Source: Pseudanabaena sp. ABRG5-3
GTDB taxonomy: Bacteria > Cyanobacteriota > Cyanobacteriia > Pseudanabaenales > Pseudanabaenaceae
DNA length: 64,000 bases
Direction: 5' to 3'
NCBI RefSeq assembly: GCF_003967015.1
Contig: NZ_AP017560.1
Span: 2,046,001 to 2,110,000, forward strand
A program made the position numbers and the translations under genes. The notes below the pieces were generated by a model that saw only the letters and a list, made by a program, of their open reading frames with translations, was not told the DNA's origin and did no database searches. Shown here piece by piece: positions 10,981 through 64,000 of the stretch. Positions within the stretch are counted from its first letter, which is position 1, and each line of letters starts with the position of its first letter.

Positions 10981-11544
10981 TCATCTGTCTGCCATAACCT
11001 GATTTATCGACAAGCTTAGCTTAGCAAAAACATTAGAAATAATTTGCTCATTCTCTTGATAAACCTTCTCAATATAAGTTCCATTTACTAAACTAAGCAC
11101 CGAAAAAGTACCTAACAGAAAATCTACAATCCAATATTCAGGGATACCAAATTGAGCATATTCTTCGCGCTTTTCTATAGTATCCACAGTACGACAAGTT
11201 GGGCTAACAATCTCAATTACCAATAGGCAAGGCTCATGCAACATATCAGGCTGATTACCTAATCCCCGTTTCTGCTCTAAAGTCATCACCAATACATCAG
11301 GTCAGCGCGTGCGTTTACCATTAAATATTTCAGTGCTATTAACACGTACACAGTAAGGTAATTGATATTGCTGTACTGCTGACTGTAAAAAAAATGCCAA
11401 GCACATCATCACATCGTTATGCAAAACCGTTGCTGGAGTCACTTCAATTAGTTCTCCATCATTAAAGTCATAACGCTTATCAGTGCCGTCATCATAGGTC
11501 AGATATTCTTCAAAGGTAATTTTCTTAGTAGTGGTAACAGTCAT
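10981..11544 (-). pseudogene. Uma2-family (DUF820) endonuclease-like gene with in-frame stop
   Basis: The upstream part (11302-11544) reads ITFEEYLTYDDGTDKRYDF...RVNSTEIFNGKRTR and stops at TGA. The same frame continues directly as PDVLVMTLEQKRG, LLVIEIVSPTCRTVD, KREEYAQFGIPEYWIVD to a stop at 10981. Together they give a normal-sized Uma2 protein of about 187 codons with the expected PD...E-I-V-SP and K...EYWIVD motifs. One nonsense change at the TGA (11302-11304) is the only lesion, so it is a recent pseudogene unless the stop is read through. Confidence 0.8.
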
Positions 11545-11569
11545 CAGTTTGTAACCTCTCTGACGATAT

Positions 11570-14500
11570 TTAATCTTGATCGCTATTGTAACAAAGCAAA
11601 TCTAAGCCACGCTCAAAAATCTCATCGATCGCCAGCATCTCTCCATCAGTCGTCATGAACTTATGATCCTTAGTAGCTTTAATGCGATCGCCATTTTCTA
11701 ACTCATATTCAAATACTTCCTGATTACCGCGATCGTGCCATTGAGCAATGGTTTGCGTATAGACAAAGCCATGCTCATCGACACTGTAAACCTGACATTC
11801 GATTTGATGCTCCACGATTTTACCGATGGGGATTAAGCCATATTCCACAGTTCGCACCAAAGTATCGTAACTGAGGCAATACTCCGCAAATAGAACCATC
11901 TGATCAAAGAGGTCATTAGAAATTTCTTTTCTAATTCCATTCTTCGCGCAACCATCAAGGAAAATGGAACGCTGTTTTTCCATTTCTTCAGGTTTCTTTT
12001 TACCCATCGCTCGACGCAACAAGTCCGCAGCACCGAGGGAATAGCCTGCTAATTCCTGCGCCATTTTCATGATCTGCTCTTGATAGCAGTTATGTGTAAC
12101 GACTCCATTGGCTAGAAAATAGGGAGAACTTTGATCTACCATTTCAATATCAAAACATTCAGCAGTCCCGCAATCTTCTACCGATATTACAAATACTGGA
12201 CGAGCATCCTGTAAATATGTCTCGGTATAAATTTTTTGATAGGCTTCAGTCCAACCTGTAATTTTGGTTGCATATTGCGATCGCACAGGTTTAACCATTA
12301 CTCCTGCTTGCAGAGAACGCTTTGCGGTTTTACGACTTTCTCGATCTGTTGTAGCGATCGCCTCTTCTAACTCTTCCTTCATTCTTAAAGATGGAATAGG
12401 AACAAAGTTATTCTTTTTCTCTCCTATCAGTTTATTGGGTAATCTTGGCTCTCCAATTAGCTGATAAAAACGGGCAATGTCCGTAATCATTACATGGGTT
12501 GAATGTAATGAATAGGAGATTTTTAGGCTGCTTAGCAATTGTCCTACTTGTTTGATTAGTTGCTTAGAAATACTACGGAAATAAGGATTTTGAGTATAGG
12601 AACCATCGCTATCCCATAGACCTCGCAAAACATCAATGCGATCACATTCCTGATAATCAACTATGTCAACAGGTAAGTGCTTATCTTTAGAATTGACTTT
12701 CCAAGTTCTACCACCATATATTTTATCCATGAAAATAGTTAATGGTGTTGGCTGCGGTTGAGTGTTGAACTTTGCATAGGCATACCAACAACGGGTATGA
12801 AAATAATGCTTCGGTTCACCTTTCCATGTCTCAGCAATCAAATTAGCAACCCAAATAGCAGTTTCTTCACTAGAGCAAGCAATATTCGGAGAACTAGAGG
12901 TTAAGTGTCCATCACCAACTAATAAACCTAATAGATAGGCTTCATTGGGTTTAAGTGATTTATTGTTTTGAGAAATTTGCCAAGTTTCATAAATGATTGA
13001 GCCATTGACATGAGCATTCTTGATATTGCCCAATGGCTTTAATTCATAGGCAAACTGATCGCCTTCTGGTGTGAGAAAGCGATGCTCTGGAGTGCAGAAA
13101 ATTTCTGTACCTGTTGAGAGCGTAATTTTAACAATTGACTTAATGCCGCTTTGCCATTGTTTCGCGACTTTCGCTGACCATACGAGCTTTCCATCGGATG
13201 AGAGAACGATATCGCCTTTGCGAATATTCTCAATAGGAGTACTTGTGCCATCGGGTCTAGCAATTAAAGTTCCTTTCGCAAGACATAACACACCATAGGT
13301 GTTATTTAATATAGATTCCAGCAACTGATGCTGATATTCGATCGCTTCTCGTCCATGCTTACGATTAATGAACTTAGGGATTAGTCCTGCATCCAAAGGT
13401 CCGGGACGATAAAGCGCCAGAATCGAGGAAATATCTTCAATATTGGAAGGCTTGAGATCCTTAACGATCTGCTTCATGCCTGAAGATTCTAATTGGAAGA
13501 CACCTTCGAGATCGCCTTTTTCTAATAGCTTATAGGTTTTTTGATTTGCCTCGGTGGACATATCGGGGGCGATCGCATCGATATGAAAATTAGGATCTTG
13601 ATTACTGCGAATTAATTCACTAGTATGCTCAATCGTGGTTAAGTTCCGCAATCCCAAAAAGTCCATTTTCAATAGACCGAGGGATTCCAAATCTTCCATT
13701 GTGTATTGCGTGACCACCTGACCTTCGTTGCTGCGCTGCAATGGCACAACTTCATCCAATGGGAATGGTGAAATCACCACACCTGCTGCGTGAACGCCTG
13801 AGCTTTTGTTTACACCTTCGATCCGCATTGCCATATCGAGCCATTCGTAAACCTTGGCATCATTTTTGTAGCGATCGCGAAATTCGGGTGCAGGCGACTC
13901 CTCAGAAATCATTACCTTTAACTTCGCAGGCTTGCCACGCGATACGGGAATCATCTTCGCCATCTTATCGGCTTCGCTGTAGGACACATCTAGCACCCGT
14001 CCCACATCTTTGAGAACTGCCTTAGAAGTCAAACGGTTGAAGGTGACAATCTGGGCGACCCGTTCCTGTCCATAGCGTTCTGTTACATATTCAATTAATT
14101 CACCACGGTGATCGATGCAGAAGTCGGTATCAATATCAGGCATCGACTTCCGCTCTGGATTGAGAAATCGCTCAAAGAGAAGTCCATGATGAATGGGATC
14201 GATATTGGTAATTCCCAAAGAATAAGCAACGAGAGAACCTGCTGCGCTACCACGACCTGGCCCGACAGGAATCTTTTTGTCTCTGGCATATTTGATATAG
14301 TCCCATACCACCAGAAAGTAAGTGGCAAAGCCCATTTGCATAATAATTCCCAATTCAAAACGCAAGCGTTCTTGATAATTTTGAGGGATCTCGGCATGGG
14401 TTTTGACATTAAATCTTTGCAGTAAGCCTTGCCATGTCACTTCTTCAAAATAGGTATCCGCAGTATGTCCTTCAGGAATCGGATAGTCCGCCGCACGGGG

Positions 14501-52705: not shown

Positions 52706-54478
52706 TCATTCAATTAATTTCTCAATTCTCAATTGTTCAACCATTAAAGGATGGATATCATACCAAGTCTGGCGGTTGCGATATTCAATTATAACACCAT
52801 TATGTAGCAAATCTAGAAATTCTTGATCTTTGGGATCTTCTGGAGCATAGTTATAATACACTTGGAGTAAGATCTGTCGATCTCTCCTGCTAAGAGTAAT
52901 TTTCATATCATTGCGAATATCATCAAAAGCCTCATCCACAATGTAATTATCAATTCGTACATCTTGAATATTTTCTCTATTCCTTAATTTTTTCCGTAGT
53001 CTTATCAAAATTAACCCGCAACATAATTTCGCGATTTTAATTGCTTCTCTCAGCACCCCTCCACTCATCAGCACAATCTTTTCTTCAATACCAGATTCAA
53101 GCAGATCGGGAGTAATACGTCTCATCAGAACTGATTTTAAAACCTGTAATGCGTGAGCATTAGGTTTACCATCAGATTTTCGACTCTCCCCCTTGGGATA
53201 AAGCTTTAACACAGGCATTACAAAAATGTGATTACCTGTTTCATGTTCAACATGTGTTTTCAAATTAATATCGTGAATCATAGAGATAGGTACTGTATAA
53301 ATGACAATGAATTTAGTCTGGAGTAAAGCCTTAAGATTCTTGTGGAAAATATCATTGATTTGAGCCAAATCAGTTTTATCAAGATCGTCAACAATAACTA
53401 ATATTTCTGATTTTGTAGCCAACTTAATTTCAGTCGCAATCGCATTCAAAGTATCAATCAAATCACGGAGATTTTGCATGAACTTAATTTTAATCTCTTC
53501 TCTAGTAATTTGTTCTGCCAAGAGTTTACTTTTAATGGCATCAAGCAAACTTAAACCGTCACTCATATAACCTTTTAGCTCAAAAGCCCCCGTTCTAGTA
53601 ATTTTCTTAAACCAGTCATTAAAAGCTTGCTTTTTATGCTTAGAAATTTTTACATTTTCCTGTTCCGCTTTTTCCATCATCTTAAAAGTGATTGCAAAAA
53701 GAATAGTAATATGGTTGATATCTTGCATCTCAATTAATTCAGCTATTGAGAAAGACACCGTAAAAAAATGTTCCTCCATCTGACGTGCAAAACTGTACAA
53801 TAAAGTAGATTTGCCACAGCCGCGATGTCCAGCAAACAAAAAATGATTTGTGTTTTCGTTACAATCTAAGACCTTCTGTTCTAATATATCAATGCTCTCA
53901 TTGCCATAATCTACCAGAAAATTATCGCGCTCCTCTTTAGTCAAGAGGGGGAACAGTTGTAAGTTGTGTGAAGCTGATTGAAATTTCTCGACTAGATCGC
54001 TATCTGTTCCCTTCGACTTATGGATATTAAACACTTTAAGATCTACTGGTAAAGCATTATCTTTAATTTCTTTTTGCAAGAGTAATTCAGGATTTATTAA
54101 ATTTGAAGATATTTTAGGTGTTTTCTGTAGAATCACTGCACAGTTTACAGATCTAATGTGGTTTCCCCACTGGTTTACAAAAACTATTGTGAGAGAACCA
54201 CTTTTTTCTTCTATATCCGCCTCAAGTAAAAACTTTGCACTTCCATAAGTTCCACAAAACCGATGTAGCATGATCGAAGGTTCACCAACAGATGTAACAG
54301 TAAACAGATTTCTAGCATTCACCATGCAATAAATTAAATACTCTTCCTCCTCATACTGCCAGTCAAACCCAGACTCAGGAATCTGCAAATCGATTTCCAT
54401 CAGATATGTCTTACCAACCTCCGCCTCCTTGGGGTATCTAATCACAGGCTGAATCAATAGCGGTAAAGTATCAGTCAT
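52706..54478 (-). CDS. P-loop ATPase of the CHAT operon, with unassigned N-terminal domain
   Basis: 590 aa. Residues 1-120 are a beta-rich domain (VIRYPKEAEVGKTYLMEIDL, then FGTYGSAKF-like) that I cannot name. The ATPase follows: Walker A GHRGCGKST (217-225), Walker B ILVIVDDLDKTD (359-370), and a sensor region around YTVPISMIHDI, in the manner of KAP/STAND-like regulators. A C-terminal winged-helix-like region (about 520-590) ends HPLMVEQLRIEKL. It overlaps the CHAT gene by 8 bases and is the last gene of the operon. Likely switch or target of the protease (inference). Confidence 0.78.
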   Translation of the reverse strand: MTDTLPLLIQPVIRYPKEAEVGKTYLMEIDLQIPESGFDWQYEEEEYLIYCMVNARNLFTVTSVGEPSIMLHRFCGTYGSAKFLLEADIEEKSGSLTIVFVNQWGNHIRSVNCAVILQKTPKISSNLINPELLLQKEIKDNALPVDLKVFNIHKSKGTDSDLVEKFQSASHNLQLFPLLTKEERDNFLVDYGNESIDILEQKVLDCNENTNHFLFAGHRGCGKSTLLYSFARQMEEHFFTVSFSIAELIEMQDINHITILFAITFKMMEKAEQENVKISKHKKQAFNDWFKKITRTGAFELKGYMSDGLSLLDAIKSKLLAEQITREEIKIKFMQNLRDLIDTLNAIATEIKLATKSEILVIVDDLDKTDLAQINDIFHKNLKALLQTKFIVIYTVPISMIHDINLKTHVEHETGNHIFVMPVLKLYPKGESRKSDGKPNAHALQVLKSVLMRRITPDLLESGIEEKIVLMSGGVLREAIKIAKLCCGLILIRLRKKLRNRENIQDVRIDNYIVDEAFDDIRNDMKITLSRRDRQILLQVYYNYAPEDPKDQEFLDLLHNGVIIEYRNRQTWYDIHPLMVEQLRIEKLIE

Positions 54479-55751
54479 TGGTCTGTCCTCCTGAGGGGGT
54501 AAGTCGGAGTACGGTCATCGGATTACCGTAATAGACATACATAAAAGTGTAGATGAAAGCTAAATGATTGTGTTGAGTTGGCTCTTTTTCTAGATCTGCT
54601 ACCACCTTAGCGCGAATATCTCGTAACAAAGCTGCTACAGATAAACTCGATGAATCCCAACAAGCCTGCATAAGATCTCTAGCAATCCTTGCAGCATAGA
54701 GATCTCCTACACCGCCCAATGTTCCAATTACCCCCTTTGCACCTTTCCTAAAGAAAAGTTCCACAAAACCAACTCGACAGTTTGGAATACGACTATGAGT
54801 TTGATGCTGTCCAGAATGACAAGTATTAAGGAATACAATTCCTCCTGTTTTGAGTGGATTCATATCTAAATCAATCAGCTTGAGTTGCTGCTTTTCATTA
54901 TTCAATACCCCAATTGCAATATCGTCATGATCTTTGCTGAATATGCCATGTGCTGCAATGTAAATAAAGCTAGAATTAGTACTTTTGATTTGCAAATGCC
55001 CATGAAACTTTGCAATGTCATCAAAAATATTAGCCTTGAGTCTCTTTAACACCATAATCTCTTCGCTAACATTGAGTTCTTGATGATTGGTATATGCGAT
55101 GGTATCACCACAACATTCTTCAGGAGCAAATTCTAGGGTTATCTCATCATCACTATCTATATTCTGCCAGCGCACCGTTGTAACTAATGCCCCCAAATAT
55201 TCATAAGGGAAAGATTCAGGACGAAGTTGCAACAATTCCCAAGGGATTTCAAAATTTGTATGGTCAGCAATAACTAGATATTTTTTGCAGTCAGATTTCT
55301 GAATTACTGTATTTAACCATTTACGAAGTACTAAATTATGACGTGAGAAGCATTTTATTGTATGTCGAATTTTTTCTGGAGTTTGTCCCTTTTGCACTAG
55401 TACATCTAACGAAATATCTGGCTTCTCATAGGGTTCTGTTAGCTGTAAAGTTATTTCCGAATTCCCTCCCATCAATCTATAGCGATCCTTTCCATCTGCT
55501 TGAATATAAAGAATCGCCACTTCAGGAGGAATCTGTGCAGTAATATAAACCTTACTTAATGGAAATACTTCCATGTCAGCTTTTTGAGCATCAGCAATAG
55601 CAGATAACCCTGAATGATTAATGATAGTAATCGTATTGTTATTTCCTTGAATAACATTATTCTCCATAGATACTTCTGCTAAAGCGTTACTTTTAGGTAA
55701 TTTAGCGCGATTCTGACTTAGACTAGATGTTACTCTTTGAATTAAGTTCAT
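54471..55751 (-). CDS. CHAT-domain caspase-like protease
   Basis: 426 aa. The N-terminus carries NNVIQGNNNTITIINHSG (31-48), a short Asn-rich repeat often found at the start of conflict-system proteins. The CHAT protease at about 160-410 has WELLQL, the catalytic His268 in FIYIAAHGIF and Cys311 in VFLNTCHSG, and the usual GVIGTLGGV. CHAT proteases cleave partner proteins on activation, as in Craspase (TPR-CHAT). It overlaps the vWA gene and the ATPase gene, so they are one operon. Confidence 0.87.
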   Translation of the reverse strand: MNLIQRVTSSLSQNRAKLPKSNALAEVSMENNVIQGNNNTITIINHSGLSAIADAQKADMEVFPLSKVYITAQIPPEVAILYIQADGKDRYRLMGGNSEITLQLTEPYEKPDISLDVLVQKGQTPEKIRHTIKCFSRHNLVLRKWLNTVIQKSDCKKYLVIADHTNFEIPWELLQLRPESFPYEYLGALVTTVRWQNIDSDDEITLEFAPEECCGDTIAYTNHQELNVSEEIMVLKRLKANIFDDIAKFHGHLQIKSTNSSFIYIAAHGIFSKDHDDIAIGVLNNEKQQLKLIDLDMNPLKTGGIVFLNTCHSGQHQTHSRIPNCRVGFVELFFRKGAKGVIGTLGGVGDLYAARIARDLMQACWDSSSLSVAALLRDIRAKVVADLEKEPTQHNHLAFIYTFMYVYYGNPMTVLRLTPSGGQTND

Positions 55752-57676: not shown

Positions 57677-57952
57677 TTAAACTGGTTCTAAACCTAAAAC
57701 TGAAGCAACTTTTTCACTATCCGCATTAGTCCAATTCACCTCATTATCCTGAGATGCTTTAGGAACCCGATGTTGCAACGCCATCGCCGCCACAGATCGA
57801 ACATGATCGTGAGTCACTTGCTTTTCACCATGTAATGCAGCGTAGGCACGAGCCGCCAAAGCCATCACATAGTCACCACGATTACCCTGTACCTGAAACT
57901 CTTTAGTCAACTTCACACAGCTTTCCACAACAGCATCAGGTAACTTCACCTC
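57677..57952 (-). pseudogene. C-terminal fragment of the MoxR/ChlI-type ATPase (split by IS)
   Basis: Reads EVKLPDAVVESCVKLTKEF, QGNRGDYVMALAARAYAAL, VTHDHVRSVAAMALQHRV to the stop: the AAA lid with the arginine-containing sensor 2. Its first codons are the target duplication on this side of the IS. An internal ATG (57949) could still translate the lid alone. Confidence 0.9.
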
Positions 57953-58987
57953 CTAAGTACAGGACAAAAATTTAATGGAGTTAAAAAAGGTAACAGAATT
58001 GAGTTGTAAGTCAAAGATGATATGACGAAGGAAATCAAAACCAAGACGAAAAATACTCTTAGGCAAGCGACCATGCTTTTTCGGCTTGAGAGGATTGAGT
58101 AAGAATTGCCATAAACCAGAAGAAAAACACCAACACAAAGCAAGAGTAAGTAAAGCAATGAGTTTAGAAAGCCGTTGCGAGTCCTGAAGATGTGTGGATT
58201 CTAAACAAAAGCCACGGGATTTAAAACAACCAAATAAAGTCTCAATGCCCCAACGCTTGGCATAGTCAGTAATAGCAGTATAAGGAGCATGGTCAGTAGC
58301 GACAATCAACAAATCGCCATCCTCCAAACGCATGGCAGCCACATACAGCCAATGTCCGAAAATATGTCTGCGTTTAGACAACACCCTAAATTCACCAACT
58401 TGGAGATCTTGAAAACAAATGTCAGCACGTAGTTGTTTTTGTCCATCCTTGAGTACGGTATTTTTACGAATGCGGATTCTAAACGGGGTGCGTGGTTCAC
58501 ACAGCAAATAGTCAAACCACTCTTCTCCCACAAATTCACGGTCTGCGGTCAAAAAGTCGATTTTACGGGCTGCAAATATTTCTAGAAATCGATTCCACAG
58601 TTCACATCGTTCGCGGGTGTTAGAGTTGCCTTTTTTATCCAGCATTATCCATACCAACGGGAAAGCGATTCCATGATGCACTACTCCTAGAGTCAGCACG
58701 TTGAAAACGGTCTTGCCAAACTGCCAATCGGTGCGGTCGATTGAGATTACCCATGGTTCGGGTATTTGCATTACTTTGACGACAGTGAGGGCAATGCTTT
58801 CATAGTCTAATTCAAAGTCTCGGAAGAATCTTTGTAGTCTTTTATAGTGCGATTCTACTTTGGCTTTGCCGCTAAATCCCGTCGCGATTTCGGCTAGGTT
58901 TACTGTCTTTACTCGTATTAGCGCGATCAGAAATGTGCACACAAATGCGAGTCTTGCTGCATTCCATTGCAGATGCTGCTGCAACAT
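57953..58987 (-). CDS. IS4-family transposase
   Basis: 344 aa DDE transposase. VISIDRTDWQFGK carries the first Asp, DFLTADREFVGEEWFDYL the second, and the YAKRWGIETLFGCFKSRG helix the Glu with the YREK-like signature of the IS4 group. RIRIRKNTV is the typical insertion-domain region. No frameshift or stop, so it looks functional. Confidence 0.92.
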   Translation of the reverse strand: MLQQHLQWNAARLAFVCTFLIALIRVKTVNLAEIATGFSGKAKVESHYKRLQRFFRDFELDYESIALTVVKVMQIPEPWVISIDRTDWQFGKTVFNVLTLGVVHHGIAFPLVWIMLDKKGNSNTRERCELWNRFLEIFAARKIDFLTADREFVGEEWFDYLLCEPRTPFRIRIRKNTVLKDGQKQLRADICFQDLQVGEFRVLSKRRHIFGHWLYVAAMRLEDGDLLIVATDHAPYTAITDYAKRWGIETLFGCFKSRGFCLESTHLQDSQRLSKLIALLTLALCWCFSSGLWQFLLNPLKPKKHGRLPKSIFRLGFDFLRHIIFDLQLNSVTFFNSIKFLSCT

Positions 58988-59094
58988 TTCTCGGAATAGG
59001 TTAATCTCTTTGATAGGGGTTTTATGGTTAGATGTGGTTATCTTTTATAAAACCCCTTTCTCTATACTTTGGCAACTTTTTGTCCTGTACCTAG
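57953..59094 (-). mobile_element. IS element (IS4-like), 1142 bp, inserted in the MoxR gene
   Basis: Terminal inverted repeats CTAAGTACAGGACAAAAA (57953-57970) and TTTTTGTCCTGTACCTAG (59077-59094), 18 bp with one mismatch. Nine-base target duplication CTTCACCTC at 57944-57952 and 59095-59103. One transposase gene fills it; its stop codon lies in the terminal repeat. Complete, so it may still move. Confidence 0.95.
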
Positions 59095-59799
59095 CTTCAC
59101 CTCATAAAATTTCTCCTTTGCCTTTACCAGCTTTTGCTTGTAAGCCTCATCTTCCGCTTTAGCTTTTGTCAGCAATTCAGGCAAAGAATCAGATGGGCGA
59201 TCGCGCAACTCAGACCAAACTTCATCAAATGCCAATACCGTATTTAAAATCTCGCGCCGCTTGTCTATCTCTGTTTCTGTGGTTACACCAACCATCAACC
59301 CAAAGCGATCGAGCAACTGAGGACGCAAACCACCTTCTTCTGGGTTCATCGTTCCCACTAACGTAAAAGCTAAAGATACTTCTTCGCTTTTTCCCTCACG
59401 CTGGATCACCAATACGCCCGTTGATGTCACATCCAAAATAATATTGACAATGTGATCGTCCAGCAAATTCACTTCATCAACATAAAGCAATCCTTTGCGA
59501 TCGGCTTCCACCAGCAACCCATCTTGCCATTGTGGTTTACCCTTCATCAACTCATCAATTTTCCAACCACCCACTACCCGATCTTCCGTAGCATTAATCG
59601 GCAAGGTCACAGGCAATTGCCCATGCATCATCTGTGCAAAAGCTCTCACCGCCGTTGACTTACCCGTACCACGCTGACCACTGATCAATACACCACCAAT
59701 ACGCGGCGCAATATAAGCCAGTTCCAAGGCAAGCTTTAATTCCTTCTGACCCACAATCCGCGTGTAAGGCAAAACCTGAATAGTTGATGGCTGACTCAT
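59062..59799 (-). pseudogene. N-terminal fragment of the MoxR/ChlI-type AAA ATPase (split by IS)
   Basis: The native part ends at EKFYEVK; the last codons come from the IS end. Walker A is GQRGTGKST (41-49) and Walker B GLLYVDEVNLL (103-113), with the extra hairpin TSTGVLVIQREGKSEEV and PEEGGLRPQLLDRF, as in magnesium-chelatase subunit I. Joined to the fragment at 57677 it would give a normal 323-residue protein. With the lid missing the ATPase is probably inactive. It overlaps the Trypco1 gene by 4 bp. Confidence 0.9.
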
Positions 59800-61379: not shown

Positions 61380-61850
61380 ATGACACAGGCTATAACTCGT
61401 AAATCTCCAAATGCCTCTCTATACGAGACAGACTTTTTGCTATGGACTGAAGAAACTGTAGCTAAGCTCAAGGCTAGGGATTTTGACCATGTGGACTTGG
61501 AAAACTTGATAGAGGAGATCGAGAGCTTGGGGAAATCAGATAAAAAGGAAATAAAAAGCCGCCTTACAACCTTGCTTGCCCATTTGCTTAAGCGCATATA
61601 TGTCAATATGCCTCAAGAGTTTAATGGCTGGGAACGGACGATTAGAAATCAAAGAACTGATCTTGAGCTAGCGCTGATGGATTCCCCTAGTTTAAAAACT
61701 ATATGGAATGATGCTTTTGATATTGCTTTTCGGCTTGCATTGCGCGATGTCAGGGATGAGTATGAGCAAAAAGGCTATCACATTCCTGAGCAATGGCAGT
61801 TTAGCCGTGACATTGAGGCGATGTTGAGTGTGAAGTTTTGGGATGATTAA
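61380..61850 (+). CDS. DUF29 domain protein
   Basis: 156 aa. LYETDFLLWTEETVAKLKARDFDHVDLENLIEEIESLGKSDK and LLAHLLKRIY plus WERTIRNQR are the DUF29 signature. These small helical proteins are multi-copy in cyanobacteria; their function is unknown, although a regulatory or toxin-antitoxin role has been considered. It overlaps coaX by 8 bases. Confidence 0.9.
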   Translation: MTQAITRKSPNASLYETDFLLWTEETVAKLKARDFDHVDLENLIEEIESLGKSDKKEIKSRLTTLLAHLLKRIYVNMPQEFNGWERTIRNQRTDLELALMDSPSLKTIWNDAFDIAFRLALRDVRDEYEQKGYHIPEQWQFSRDIEAMLSVKFWDD

Positions 61851-62574
61851 TCCGAATAATTACTTAGTGATCGCCATAGGCAACACCAGAATTAAGGCGG
61901 TTATTTTGAGCAGCGATCGCCAAATTCTTGAGGAATATGCCTTTACCCATGACCAATTACCAATTTTAGAAGCGCAACTTGCGGATCGGGATTTTGCAAA
62001 TATTGCGATCACTTCAGTAGTTCCTGATTTGCTCACCAGTTGGCATCATCTTCCACAAACCCAAATTATTAAAACTGCTGATGTGCCTTTGCAAGGTTTA
62101 TACACAACGATGGGATGCGATCGCGCTTTGGCAGCGTATGGTGCAGGGGAAGTCTATGGCTATCCAGTTTTAGTAATTGATGCAGGGACGGCGATTACTT
62201 TAACGGGAATTGATGCGGATAAGACTTTGGTTGGTGGGGCAATTGTGGCGGGATTGCGATCGCAGTTTTTGAGTTTGTATCAAAATACGGCAGCTTTGCC
62301 CGACGTGCGTATTCCCGAAACCTTGCCAAATCGTTGGGGCATGGATACGTCTAGCTCCATTCAAGGGGGGATTGCTCACATGTTTTTAGCAGGTTTACAA
62401 GCTTATATTGATGATTGGCGATCGCGATTTCCTGATAGCAAAGTGATAATTACTGGAGGAGATGGAGAACATTTAGTGAAATGGGGACTACAAGTAGATA
62501 TAATTGATAAGAATCTAATTTTTTGGGGATTATGGCATTGTCGTGAGTTTCAATCCAAAGCTTTGTCGCAATGA
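61843..62574 (+). CDS. coaX: Type III pantothenate kinase
   Basis: 243 aa ASKHA-fold kinase for the first step of CoA synthesis. YLVIAIGNTRIKAVIL has the phosphate loop (IGNTR replaces the usual DxGNT/S), VLVIDAGTAITLTGID the catalytic Asp, and GGAIVAGL and ITGGDGEHL the adenine/phosphate contacts. No other CoaA-type gene is seen. It overlaps the upstream DUF29 gene and, by 32 bases, the downstream nuclease-ParA gene. Confidence 0.9.
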   Translation: MINPNNYLVIAIGNTRIKAVILSSDRQILEEYAFTHDQLPILEAQLADRDFANIAITSVVPDLLTSWHHLPQTQIIKTADVPLQGLYTTMGCDRALAAYGAGEVYGYPVLVIDAGTAITLTGIDADKTLVGGAIVAGLRSQFLSLYQNTAALPDVRIPETLPNRWGMDTSSSIQGGIAHMFLAGLQAYIDDWRSRFPDSKVIITGGDGEHLVKWGLQVDIIDKNLIFWGLWHCREFQSKALSQ

Positions 62575-63952
62575 AAGCGAAGTAGAAAGTAAATTAATTG
62601 TCCAGTATCTTTTGCCTACGCTTGGTTATGACGCGAGTAAATGGCATCAGGAAGTTGCCTTAGGGAGCATTCGTTTAGATTTTTTAGCTCTGACTTCTCA
62701 GGTGTTTCCTAGTATTACTGACTCTGCGCCCAAGGTTTGTGTGGTGATGGAGGCGAAACACCCGAAGCAAAATCTTGACTCCCATGTGCGGCGGTTGAGT
62801 CGTTATTTAACGCGCTTACATGTTGTGTATGGTGTCTTAACCAATGGTAAGGATTTTCGGATTTATGAGCTTGTGGGCGATCAGGTCAAGCTAAATTTCC
62901 AATGTCAAGGTGCAGAAATTACCGACAAAATCGAAAAAATCAAAGATATTATTGGCAGAGATAAATTAGCTGGCTTTCAAGCAATTCTTGAGACTATCGA
63001 TAAATTTAGTCCACCGACTCCCCAATTAGTTATTCAGCCGCCTCAGTCCCCAGAAGTTTCTCTCTCTTTTTCCAATTACTCAACTAAAACTATGAAAACG
63101 ATCGCAATCTATCACAACAAAGGTGGTGTGGGTAAAACTACGACTACCATTAATCTTGCTGCTGCTATTAGTCGTAAAGGTTTAAAAGTTTTGATTATTG
63201 ATCTCGATAGTCAAGCAAATACTACCTATGCCGCAGGGCTAATGAAGTTTGATACTGAAGAAGAAGATACACTCAAAGATAGCAACATTTACAATGTTGT
63301 CTTCTATCCAAAATCTAACTATATCCCTGAAATTGCACTTAAGAGTACCTTTACTTATCCCCCAGTCGATGTCATTCCCGCCCACATTAATTTAATTTGG
63401 CAAGAGGCAAGATTAGTTGATAAAGATAGTTCTAAAACCCATTTAGTCAAGAAATTAGAACTGGTAAAAGATGACTATGATGTGGTTTTGATCGATACGC
63501 CACCATCTCTGAATCTCTACGCCAAAATTGCGCTGATAGCCTGTGATTATTTAATCATTCCCTCTGACCTCAAGCCTTTTGCCAACGAAGGTTTACGCAA
63601 CGTTAAAAACTTTATTGAAGAAATTGATGAGTTTCGGACTTTTATCAATAAACCTGCGATCGCGGTTTTAGGTGTATTGCCTTCCAAAATCTTAACTAAT
63701 GCCAATTACGTCAAAGCAACTTTGCCTAAACAAGAAAAGGTTGTCGAAGAGCGTTATGGATTCCCAGTGTTAGAAACCAGAATCTTTCAACGTGAAGACT
63801 TATCAAGGGCAATTGATAACTTTACATTTGAAGGCGATCGCCAAATTCCTGACCCTAAGTCTATCTTTGACTTTAAACCAGATTCCATATCTGCTGCTGA
63901 GTTTGAGGAGTTAGCCAATGAAGTTCTTGCAAAAGTAGGATTAAGTGCATGA
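62543..63952 (+). CDS. Fusion of HSDR_N-type PD-(D/E)XK nuclease domain and ParA/MinD ATPase
   Basis: 469 aa from a GTG at 62543 inside the end of coaX. Residues 10-160 match the N-terminal domain of type I restriction R subunits: NESEVESKLIVQYLLPTLGY, then IRLDFLAL (D46) and VVMEAKHP (E70, K72). After a Pro/Gln-rich linker (about 155-180), a complete ParA begins exactly at MKTIAIYHNKGGVGKTTTTINL (184 onward), with IIDLDSQANTT and VLIDTPPSLN. It overlaps the next gene by ATGA. Probably a mobile-element or defence-type protein, not the chromosomal ParA. Confidence 0.85.
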   Translation: MSFNPKLCRNESEVESKLIVQYLLPTLGYDASKWHQEVALGSIRLDFLALTSQVFPSITDSAPKVCVVMEAKHPKQNLDSHVRRLSRYLTRLHVVYGVLTNGKDFRIYELVGDQVKLNFQCQGAEITDKIEKIKDIIGRDKLAGFQAILETIDKFSPPTPQLVIQPPQSPEVSLSFSNYSTKTMKTIAIYHNKGGVGKTTTTINLAAAISRKGLKVLIIDLDSQANTTYAAGLMKFDTEEEDTLKDSNIYNVVFYPKSNYIPEIALKSTFTYPPVDVIPAHINLIWQEARLVDKDSSKTHLVKKLELVKDDYDVVLIDTPPSLNLYAKIALIACDYLIIPSDLKPFANEGLRNVKNFIEEIDEFRTFINKPAIAVLGVLPSKILTNANYVKATLPKQEKVVEERYGFPVLETRIFQREDLSRAIDNFTFEGDRQIPDPKSIFDFKPDSISAAEFEELANEVLAKVGLSA

Positions 63953-64000
63953 GTCTATTAACTTCTTCCATCGACCTAGATACAATCACACCGCCAGCAA
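63949..64000 (+). CDS. Start of a gene coupled to the nuclease-ParA gene (3' end outside window)
   Basis: ATG at 63949 overlaps the ParA stop (ATGA). Visible residues are MSLLTSSIDLDTITPPA. A ParB-like or other partner is possible by position, but the sequence is too short to tell. Confidence 0.6.
   Translation, partial: MSLLTSSIDLDTITPPA

Follow-up and report, generated by a model that had tools for sequence, protein, structure and literature searches.

ParA systems are usually seen as movers of cargo; what, then, would one of them do with a restriction-type nuclease? This question is raised by a gene towards the 3' end of a 64,000-nucleotide stretch of the Pseudanabaena sp. ABRG5-3 genome (hereafter the window), which a first-pass annotation had described as a PD-(D/E)XK domain fused to a complete ParA. 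A family of this kind would combine the positioning and the cutting of DNA in one system. The fusion is real. An HsdR-type domain (HSDR_N_2 in Pfam, residues 17-116, E 7.5e-7, 29.7 bits with a threshold of 25) precedes a complete ParA (AAA_31/ParA, residues 184-363, E 4.5e-53), and the annotation was also right that the ParA part retains both Walker motifs, each of them complete (KGGVGKTT, K193-T200, for Walker A and VVLIDTPPS for Walker B). The nuclease residues D46, E70 and K72 lie where they had been placed and are kept in 78/78 aligned sequences, our own gene included. The predicted ATGA-coupled next gene likewise exists, with its end about 900 bases past the window; reading on into that sequence, as had been advised, completes a gene with a ParB fold (L009:2950-3900). 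This partner gene is present at 78 of 81 loci, the window's own among them, with only its 3' part called at L089, and the fusion and partner genes are separated by -70 to +3 bases in 76 of the 78 cases. At each of the three loci lacking a partner, the contig ends no more than 563 bases from the fusion gene. Because the three catalytic residues are kept throughout and the next gene recurs with such regularity, the fusion is not a product of chance. The features of the locus are collected in Table 1.

Table 1. Positions in the window of the fusion gene, its parts and its neighbours.
Feature	Position	Strand	Basis or remark
Fusion gene, PD-(D/E)XK nuclease domain and ParA, 469 aa, GTG start	62543..63952	+	ORF list, Pfam
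HsdR-N type PD-(D/E)XK domain, residues 1-140	62543..62962	+	HSDR_N_2, AF2 model, structural match
D46 codon, nuclease active site	62678..62680	+	78/78 aligned; type 2 11/11
E70-x-K72 codons, nuclease active site	62750..62758	+	78/78 aligned; type 2 11/11
Variable linker, nuclease to ParA	62963..63091	+	columns of poor conservation
ParA domain, residues 184-469, from Met184 (probable internal start)	63092..63949	+	Met184 77/77
ParB-like partner gene, start portion inside window	63949..64000	+	partner 316 aa, end ~64899
Type III pantothenate kinase (coaX), upstream neighbour	61843..62574	+	32-base overlap with fusion

The fusion is present in a single copy in its own genome (5.66 Mb in 8 contigs, with the window on a 4.8-Mb contig), and coaX adjoins it at 14 of the 19 Pseudanabaena-group loci. 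At the fusion locus promoter-like sites were no commoner than in shuffled sequences, and neither a terminator nor an Rfam match was found.

The identity of the N-terminal domain is supported by structural comparison. An AF2 model of residues 1-165, built on 65 sequences (pLDDT 84.8, pTM 0.80), aligned in VIA-align with the DrdV nuclease (Z 11.9, rmsd 4.9, 139 aligned), HsdR 3h1t (Z 11.6, rmsd 3.4, 126 aligned) and BpuSI (Z 11.0, rmsd 3.5, 135 aligned), against a background in which unrelated rows such as mitoribosome chains score Z 5-7. By Foldseek alone the matches were weak (best E 0.019). The domain thus has fold and catalytic residues in common with HsdR and the type IIG-IIL restriction enzymes, but here the nuclease is joined to ParA rather than to a helicase or methylase. 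A type I restriction-modification system was considered and rejected, as Pfam finds no helicase domain on the fusion chain. In the distant second subfamily described below (type 2), D, E-x-K and Q-x-x-x-Y are each kept in 11/11 sequences, the last being the QxxxY motif of restriction-type nucleases. Across two sets of four intact genes, dN/dS in the nuclease domain is 0.08-0.13. Among curated defence models, PADLOC matches to the fusion are confined to the P-loop region of ParA.

The downstream half of the module recalls ParABS (Soj/Spo0J), in which a gene for a ParB-fold protein likewise follows that of a deviant Walker ParA within the same operon. The deviant Walker A, A' and B positions (K193-T200, D220, D222 and D318-P321) are invariant in 77 rows, and among PDB structures this ParA is closest to Soj (6iub, E 2e-21). 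McdA/McdB carboxysome positioning, likewise a cyanobacterial ParA-type system, was rejected as an identity for the module: among solved structures McdA (6noo) is matched only distantly, at E 6e-8 versus 2e-21 for Soj. McdB is not known to have a ParB fold. Unlike ParABS, the module carries an N-terminal nuclease on its ParA and a probable second start, while its partner lacks the central helix-turn-helix (HTH) and the GERR arginines, has replaceable tails and comes with no parS that we could find.

The N-terminal fold of the partner is that of the ParB/Noc/PadC/sulfiredoxin group (Foldseek to Noc/ParB, E 1.6e-5). Its model (pLDDT 77.9, pTM 0.38) places a long helix after the ParB domain, followed by a region of low confidence and then by a helical tail. 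Family models describe it poorly: PF02195 was above the cut-off in four of seven partners scanned, the window's own falling below it (18.4 versus 26.3 bits), and no HTH family was found in these seven. In the register of the Noc alignment, arginine occupies positions 62, 63 and 65 in 1, 0 and 0 of 76 partners, respectively; letters resembling GHFEYYA stand in the partner at the place of GERRWRA in Noc, so the usual triphosphate-binding arginines are gone. No partner (0/78) has LG[RK]G within its first 40 residues, the region in which we looked for the LGRGL-type, ParA-activating motif of ParB partners. Behind the ParB-fold part lies a coiled coil and then a C-terminal tail, and 94 of 95 tails belong to three types, two of them named by resemblance: HhH-like (77 type-1 and 2 type-2 partners), SAP-like (4 and 4) and 'YWxxPxKxLTWENL' (5 and 2). 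The one tail outside these groups belongs to the type-2 partner of L130. The partner also varies more than the fusion, with a mean column identity of 25% versus 55% and a dN/dS of 0.22-0.30. The first-pass annotation had named an ordinary plasmid ParB with parS sites, together with nuclease residues that vary among homologues, as the finding that would deflate its proposal; neither was found.

As that annotation had recommended, we looked for the fusion elsewhere, and full-length relatives occur across the cyanobacteria, joined by a second subfamily with the same architecture. A peptide scan of 84,980 species genomes returned 131 relatives, from which 80 loci were retained, each cyanobacterial, with Fischerella PCC 9431, Pseudanabaena biceps PCC 7429 and Nostoc sp. 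ATCC 43529 among the carriers. The peptides were drawn from the window's own subfamily, active site included, so other subfamilies may exist outside the cyanobacteria; a profile search of whole genomes was added because the first scan's peptides contained the active site. Identity to the window's fusion is 75-92% in most Pseudanabaena-group loci, 56-61% in three of them and 49-58% in the other relatives. The nuclease profile matched 63 of 386 cyanobacterial genomes, once each, and 48 of the 49 matching genomes examined have ParA in the same or an overlapping frame, the sole exception being L139, a 1265-aa ORF without ParA. Eleven of these 48 form type 2, with identical domain order. Within one Nostocaceae-type family the fusion family is present in 78 of 145 genomes, and in the genus Pseudanabaena 24 of 26 genomes match the nuclease profile, one of them (G502) representing another system, while the ParA part, searched separately, was likewise found in 24 of 26. 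Such patchy occurrence argues against a general chromosome-segregation system. In a phylogeny of 54 ParA domains the Pseudanabaena-group sequences fall at two separate places, which makes some horizontal movement likely.

The 78-row alignment leaves out L001, which duplicates the own gene, L020 and L022, whose nuclease is broken, and L024, which is cut by a contig end; L075 was also dropped from the fusion alignment A1, and L049 and L089 from the partner alignment A2. The comparison of the two types excludes L096 (the same gene as L120) and has 38 type-1 rows, L139 among them, one of which has R at position 15. Plasmid and phage origins were each considered and rejected. Of the best 5000 plasmid records, none has a place that covers 80% of the fusion, and the nuclease domain matches 13 of 72,556 plasmid records, mostly restriction enzymes or methylases, and four phage records, all DNA methylases; none of these carries a ParA annotation. 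A two-pattern scan with the fusion likewise drew no relative from IMG/VR. We found no description of the fusion in the literature on it or on cyanobacterial ParA/ParB (open-licence papers, supplements excluded), and the accessible text of a 2025 survey of the ParB-CTPase fold calls only a ParB-DUF3850 fusion consistently parA-adjacent (PMC12704722). As far as these searches go, the module is conserved and previously undescribed, a ParA/ParB variant with a nuclease as its accessory.

The nuclease has been lost repeatedly while ParA was kept. ParA-only genes with a partner lie beside nuclease remnants in two Nostocaceae-type genera and one Pseudanabaena genome, and these three cases occupy separate places on the tree, so at least three nuclease decays have occurred; three more genomes have the ParA-only arrangement with no remnant detected. 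The ParA-only label accounts for ten rows of the 54-domain tree, two of them second copies (L074b, L180) beside or near a full fusion, and changes six times, at least four of these on well-supported branches. In the two ParA-only genera, represented by three and two genomes, dN/dS is 0.04-0.08 for ParA and 0.22-0.24 for the partner. The reverse loss, of ParA with the nuclease kept, was seen once (L185), and several other copies are broken up by frameshifts, possibly through errors of sequencing. At L180 a full nuclease-ParA/partner pair (784-2957) is followed 9 kb on by a ParA-only/partner pair (11139-12796).

A second line of evidence concerns the start of the ParA part. Met184 is invariant (77/77) at the expected start of a free-standing ParA, while the residues preceding it vary. 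Among the 62 type-1 genes from outside Pseudanabaena, a ribosome-binding motif (AGGA, GGAG, GAGG or AAGG, positions -17 to -4) precedes Met184 in 53 and the inferred long-form start, for which we used whichever start codon lay closest to the aligned N terminus, in 56, compared with five of 355 other internal methionines. Synonymous resampling with the family's codon use predicts 12.9 such motifs at Met184 (maximum of 22 in 500 trials) against the 53 found, and 42 of the 48 arginine codons in the stretch before Met184 are AGG. The motif AAGG, the fixed span and the split by clade were added after an earlier test, in which AGGA, GGAG or GAGG was accepted anywhere in 20 nt and the clades were pooled; by that test a motif preceded 47 of 77 internal starts and 54 of 76 long-form starts, compared with 32 of 435 other methionines. 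Related sequences are non-independent in these counts, and the control is formed by the other methionines of the same genes. The signal is confined to part of the family. In the Pseudanabaena group the motif occurs at 0/16 internal and 0/16 long-form starts (4/79 other methionines), and in the window's own copy none is visible at either start; the same is true of four further type-1 genes. In type 2 the methionine is kept in 10/11 sequences, with the motif before it in 6/11 (6/87 other methionines) and at the long-form start in 0/11.

An invariant methionine with its own ribosome-binding site in most type-1 genes from outside Pseudanabaena indicates that the gene probably also makes ParA alone. 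Dual initiation, giving both nuclease-ParA and ParA alone, is strongly suggested in these relatives by the conserved sequence signals. The long-form start codon is TTG in 60 of the 62 non-Pseudanabaena type-1 genes, from which we infer that ParA alone may be their main product. In the ParA-only genes L175-L177, which belong to one genus, the ribosome-binding motif is followed by a stop codon, which precedes the ATG by two codons and bars any start of ParA further upstream. Together, the natural losses of the nuclease and the probable internal start point to an accessory role of the nuclease beside a ParA/ParB-like core, rather than to the single unit of the first-pass view.

The genomic surroundings bear on which DNA the module might serve. 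No canonical parS with two or fewer mismatches was found in the genome of the window, and sites with three mismatches number 19, against 23 in a reversed control. No exact palindrome is common near the operon, the best occurring at seven of 81 loci; a parS of some different sequence may exist. Canonical ParBs are encoded on five of the smaller contigs of this genome, with none detected on the 4.8-Mb contig; other divergent ParB-like genes may have been missed, since the ParB family model is silent on the window's own partner. The module thus places a ParA/ParB-like pair on a cyanobacterial chromosome on which no canonical ParB was found. Within one family (138 genomes, seven ParA-only genomes left out), carriers have a mean of 2.6 canonical ParBs (n=76) and non-carriers 1.5 (n=62; Mann-Whitney p 6e-4), a comparison uncorrected for genome size and kinship. 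Canonical ParBs are commoner in carriers, not rarer, which disfavours a general anti-plasmid role and, with it, the earlier suggestion of cutting foreign DNA in so far as plasmids were meant. Looked at for signs of a defence island, the neighbouring genes are mostly housekeeping, judged from 115 proteins (one per sequence cluster) at 23 selected loci of the 81 and with no background set; the same holds for their Pfam families among the 25 of 135 listed. PADLOC matched 43 families to these neighbours at E 1e-10, and the 25 that are listed, each in one protein, include many PD-T4-6 models and one restriction fragment (L010). The neighbourhood is partly shared within Pseudanabaena and within Nostocales.

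The partner's domain also occurs in one Anabaena phage and on one phage-like contig. Against 50,697 phage records, the partner from the Nostocales locus L046, the sole partner searched, matched only Anabaena phage A-4L (two records of the one phage), in a 1717-aa virion protein (E 2e-6), and the partner profile matched this protein in the PDB (9k3a_B, E 3.5e-9) better than it matched Noc/ParB. The partner-like domain spans approximately residues 1342-1405 of the 1717 encoded by A4L_27 (L142:5872-6264). Pfam found no family anywhere in the virion protein, which resembles a polyvalent protein with a ParB-like domain. In the accessible portion of a study of polyvalent proteins, their ParB domains are not associated with ParA (PMC5512222); the cellular partner described here, by contrast, accompanies one. 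Searching IMG/VR with L046, the alignment A2 and two single proteins identified a phage-like contig on which a truncated partner, 79% identical to a Chrysosporum host copy, runs into repeats. The same stretch of this contig (IMGVR_UViG_3300042471_001765; L143:4001-4306 / L145) bears a Mu-F-type head gene, cas5 and csd1. These two cases may represent counter-defence, hijacking or chance capture.

We are now able to propose a role for the family, to which we give about an even chance: a chromosomal, non-canonical ParA/ParB-like module for positioning DNA, equipped with an accessory restriction-type nuclease and making two proteins from one gene. Translation from the first start would yield nuclease-ParA of about 52 kDa, and translation from the ATG at the ParA boundary would yield ParA alone, of about 32 kDa. 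On DNA the two products would share ATP-dependent ParA dimers, and the nuclease would thereby be diluted. The ParB-fold partner would bring the complex to its DNA through its coiled coil and replaceable tail, and the PD-(D/E)XK domain would cut when the wrong kind of DNA, or a DNA intermediate, is met. In the absence of the nuclease, the ParA/partner pair would still be useful. The domains, their conserved active sites, the coupling within an operon and the repeated loss of the nuclease, with ParA and partner still under selection, are established at the level of comparative sequence, and handling of the cell's own DNA would fit the pattern of loss best. Positioning and cutting would be united here in an intact, probably optional nuclease on ParA, a blade that was repeatedly lost while its motor was kept.

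Several other explanations have to be weighed against this one. Given the partner's domain in the A-4L virion protein, the module may instead serve in anti-phage defence, a minority possibility: the partner would sense the DNA or a replication complex of a phage, ParA would spread or concentrate the enzyme, the nuclease would cut, and phages would answer with the partner's domain as a decoy. The rapid evolution of the partner, the presence of each of its three tail types in both subfamilies, its domain in phage A-4L and on the phage-like contig, and the patchy distribution all point in this direction. Nonetheless, the neighbours are mostly housekeeping genes, the phage link consists of one phage and one repeat-interrupted fragment, and ParA and partner persist under purifying selection after the nuclease is gone, which a pure effector would not predict. 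A more speculative and rather doubtful reading is ParA-driven DNA surveillance, in which nested starts would, by the ratio of their products, set the dose of the blade, partner tails would pick the DNA, and the cyanophage domain would disarm or hijack the system, perhaps after injection of the virion protein. The A-4L protein provides a concrete phage candidate for interference with a ParA/partner system.

The nuclease fold might also do no more than hold DNA or DNA ends, giving ParA an extra DNA-binding domain; ParA works on DNA, and several lineages do without the nuclease domain. We consider this unlikely, as binding alone would not need the three catalytic residues that are invariant in both subfamilies. 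The joining of a DNA-segregation ATPase to a nuclease is reportedly the arrangement of MksG and Wadjet, and the logic of Wadjet/MksBEFG is common to our module, which suggests a plasmid-exclusion system built on ParA. The rarity of the nuclease domain among plasmid records, and the fusion going unseen among the best 5000, would agree with exclusion, but Wadjet/MksBEFG is an SMC complex, our module is built on ParA and gives no sign of excluding plasmids, carriers have more canonical ParBs (in the uncorrected comparison above), and several of the smaller contigs in the window's own genome bear genes of the ParA and ParB types; this reading is accordingly quite improbable. Least credible of all is the capture by the chromosome of an ordinary plasmid-type ParABS whose extra domain is an unimportant passenger. 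The Soj-like ParA and the ParB fold of the partner would be expected of such a capture, but the nuclease residues are under strong selection, the partner lacks the ParB arginines, HTH and LGRGL motif, parS was not found, and the one partner searched against plasmid records (L046, Nostocales) had no match.

Three further observations concern the surroundings of these genes. Upstream of the fusion, and no more than 6 kb from it, 27 of 62 non-Pseudanabaena loci (among L028-L088) have a divergently oriented ParA gene without a nuclease, and such a gene is also found divergently upstream at three of 11 type-2 loci (L129, L131 and L134); its product is of approximately 294 aa, and it recurs in both subfamilies. 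Elsewhere in the window, on the reverse strand, a transposase-like ORF (57953-58987) seems by eye to split a chelatase-type AAA ATPase gene (57677-57949 and 59062-59799, within 57677-59799). Also on the reverse strand, at 52706-55751, a large NTPase gene overlaps one whose product has a CHAT-like (caspase-type) protease motif, and by eye the two have the look of a CHAT/NTPase pair.
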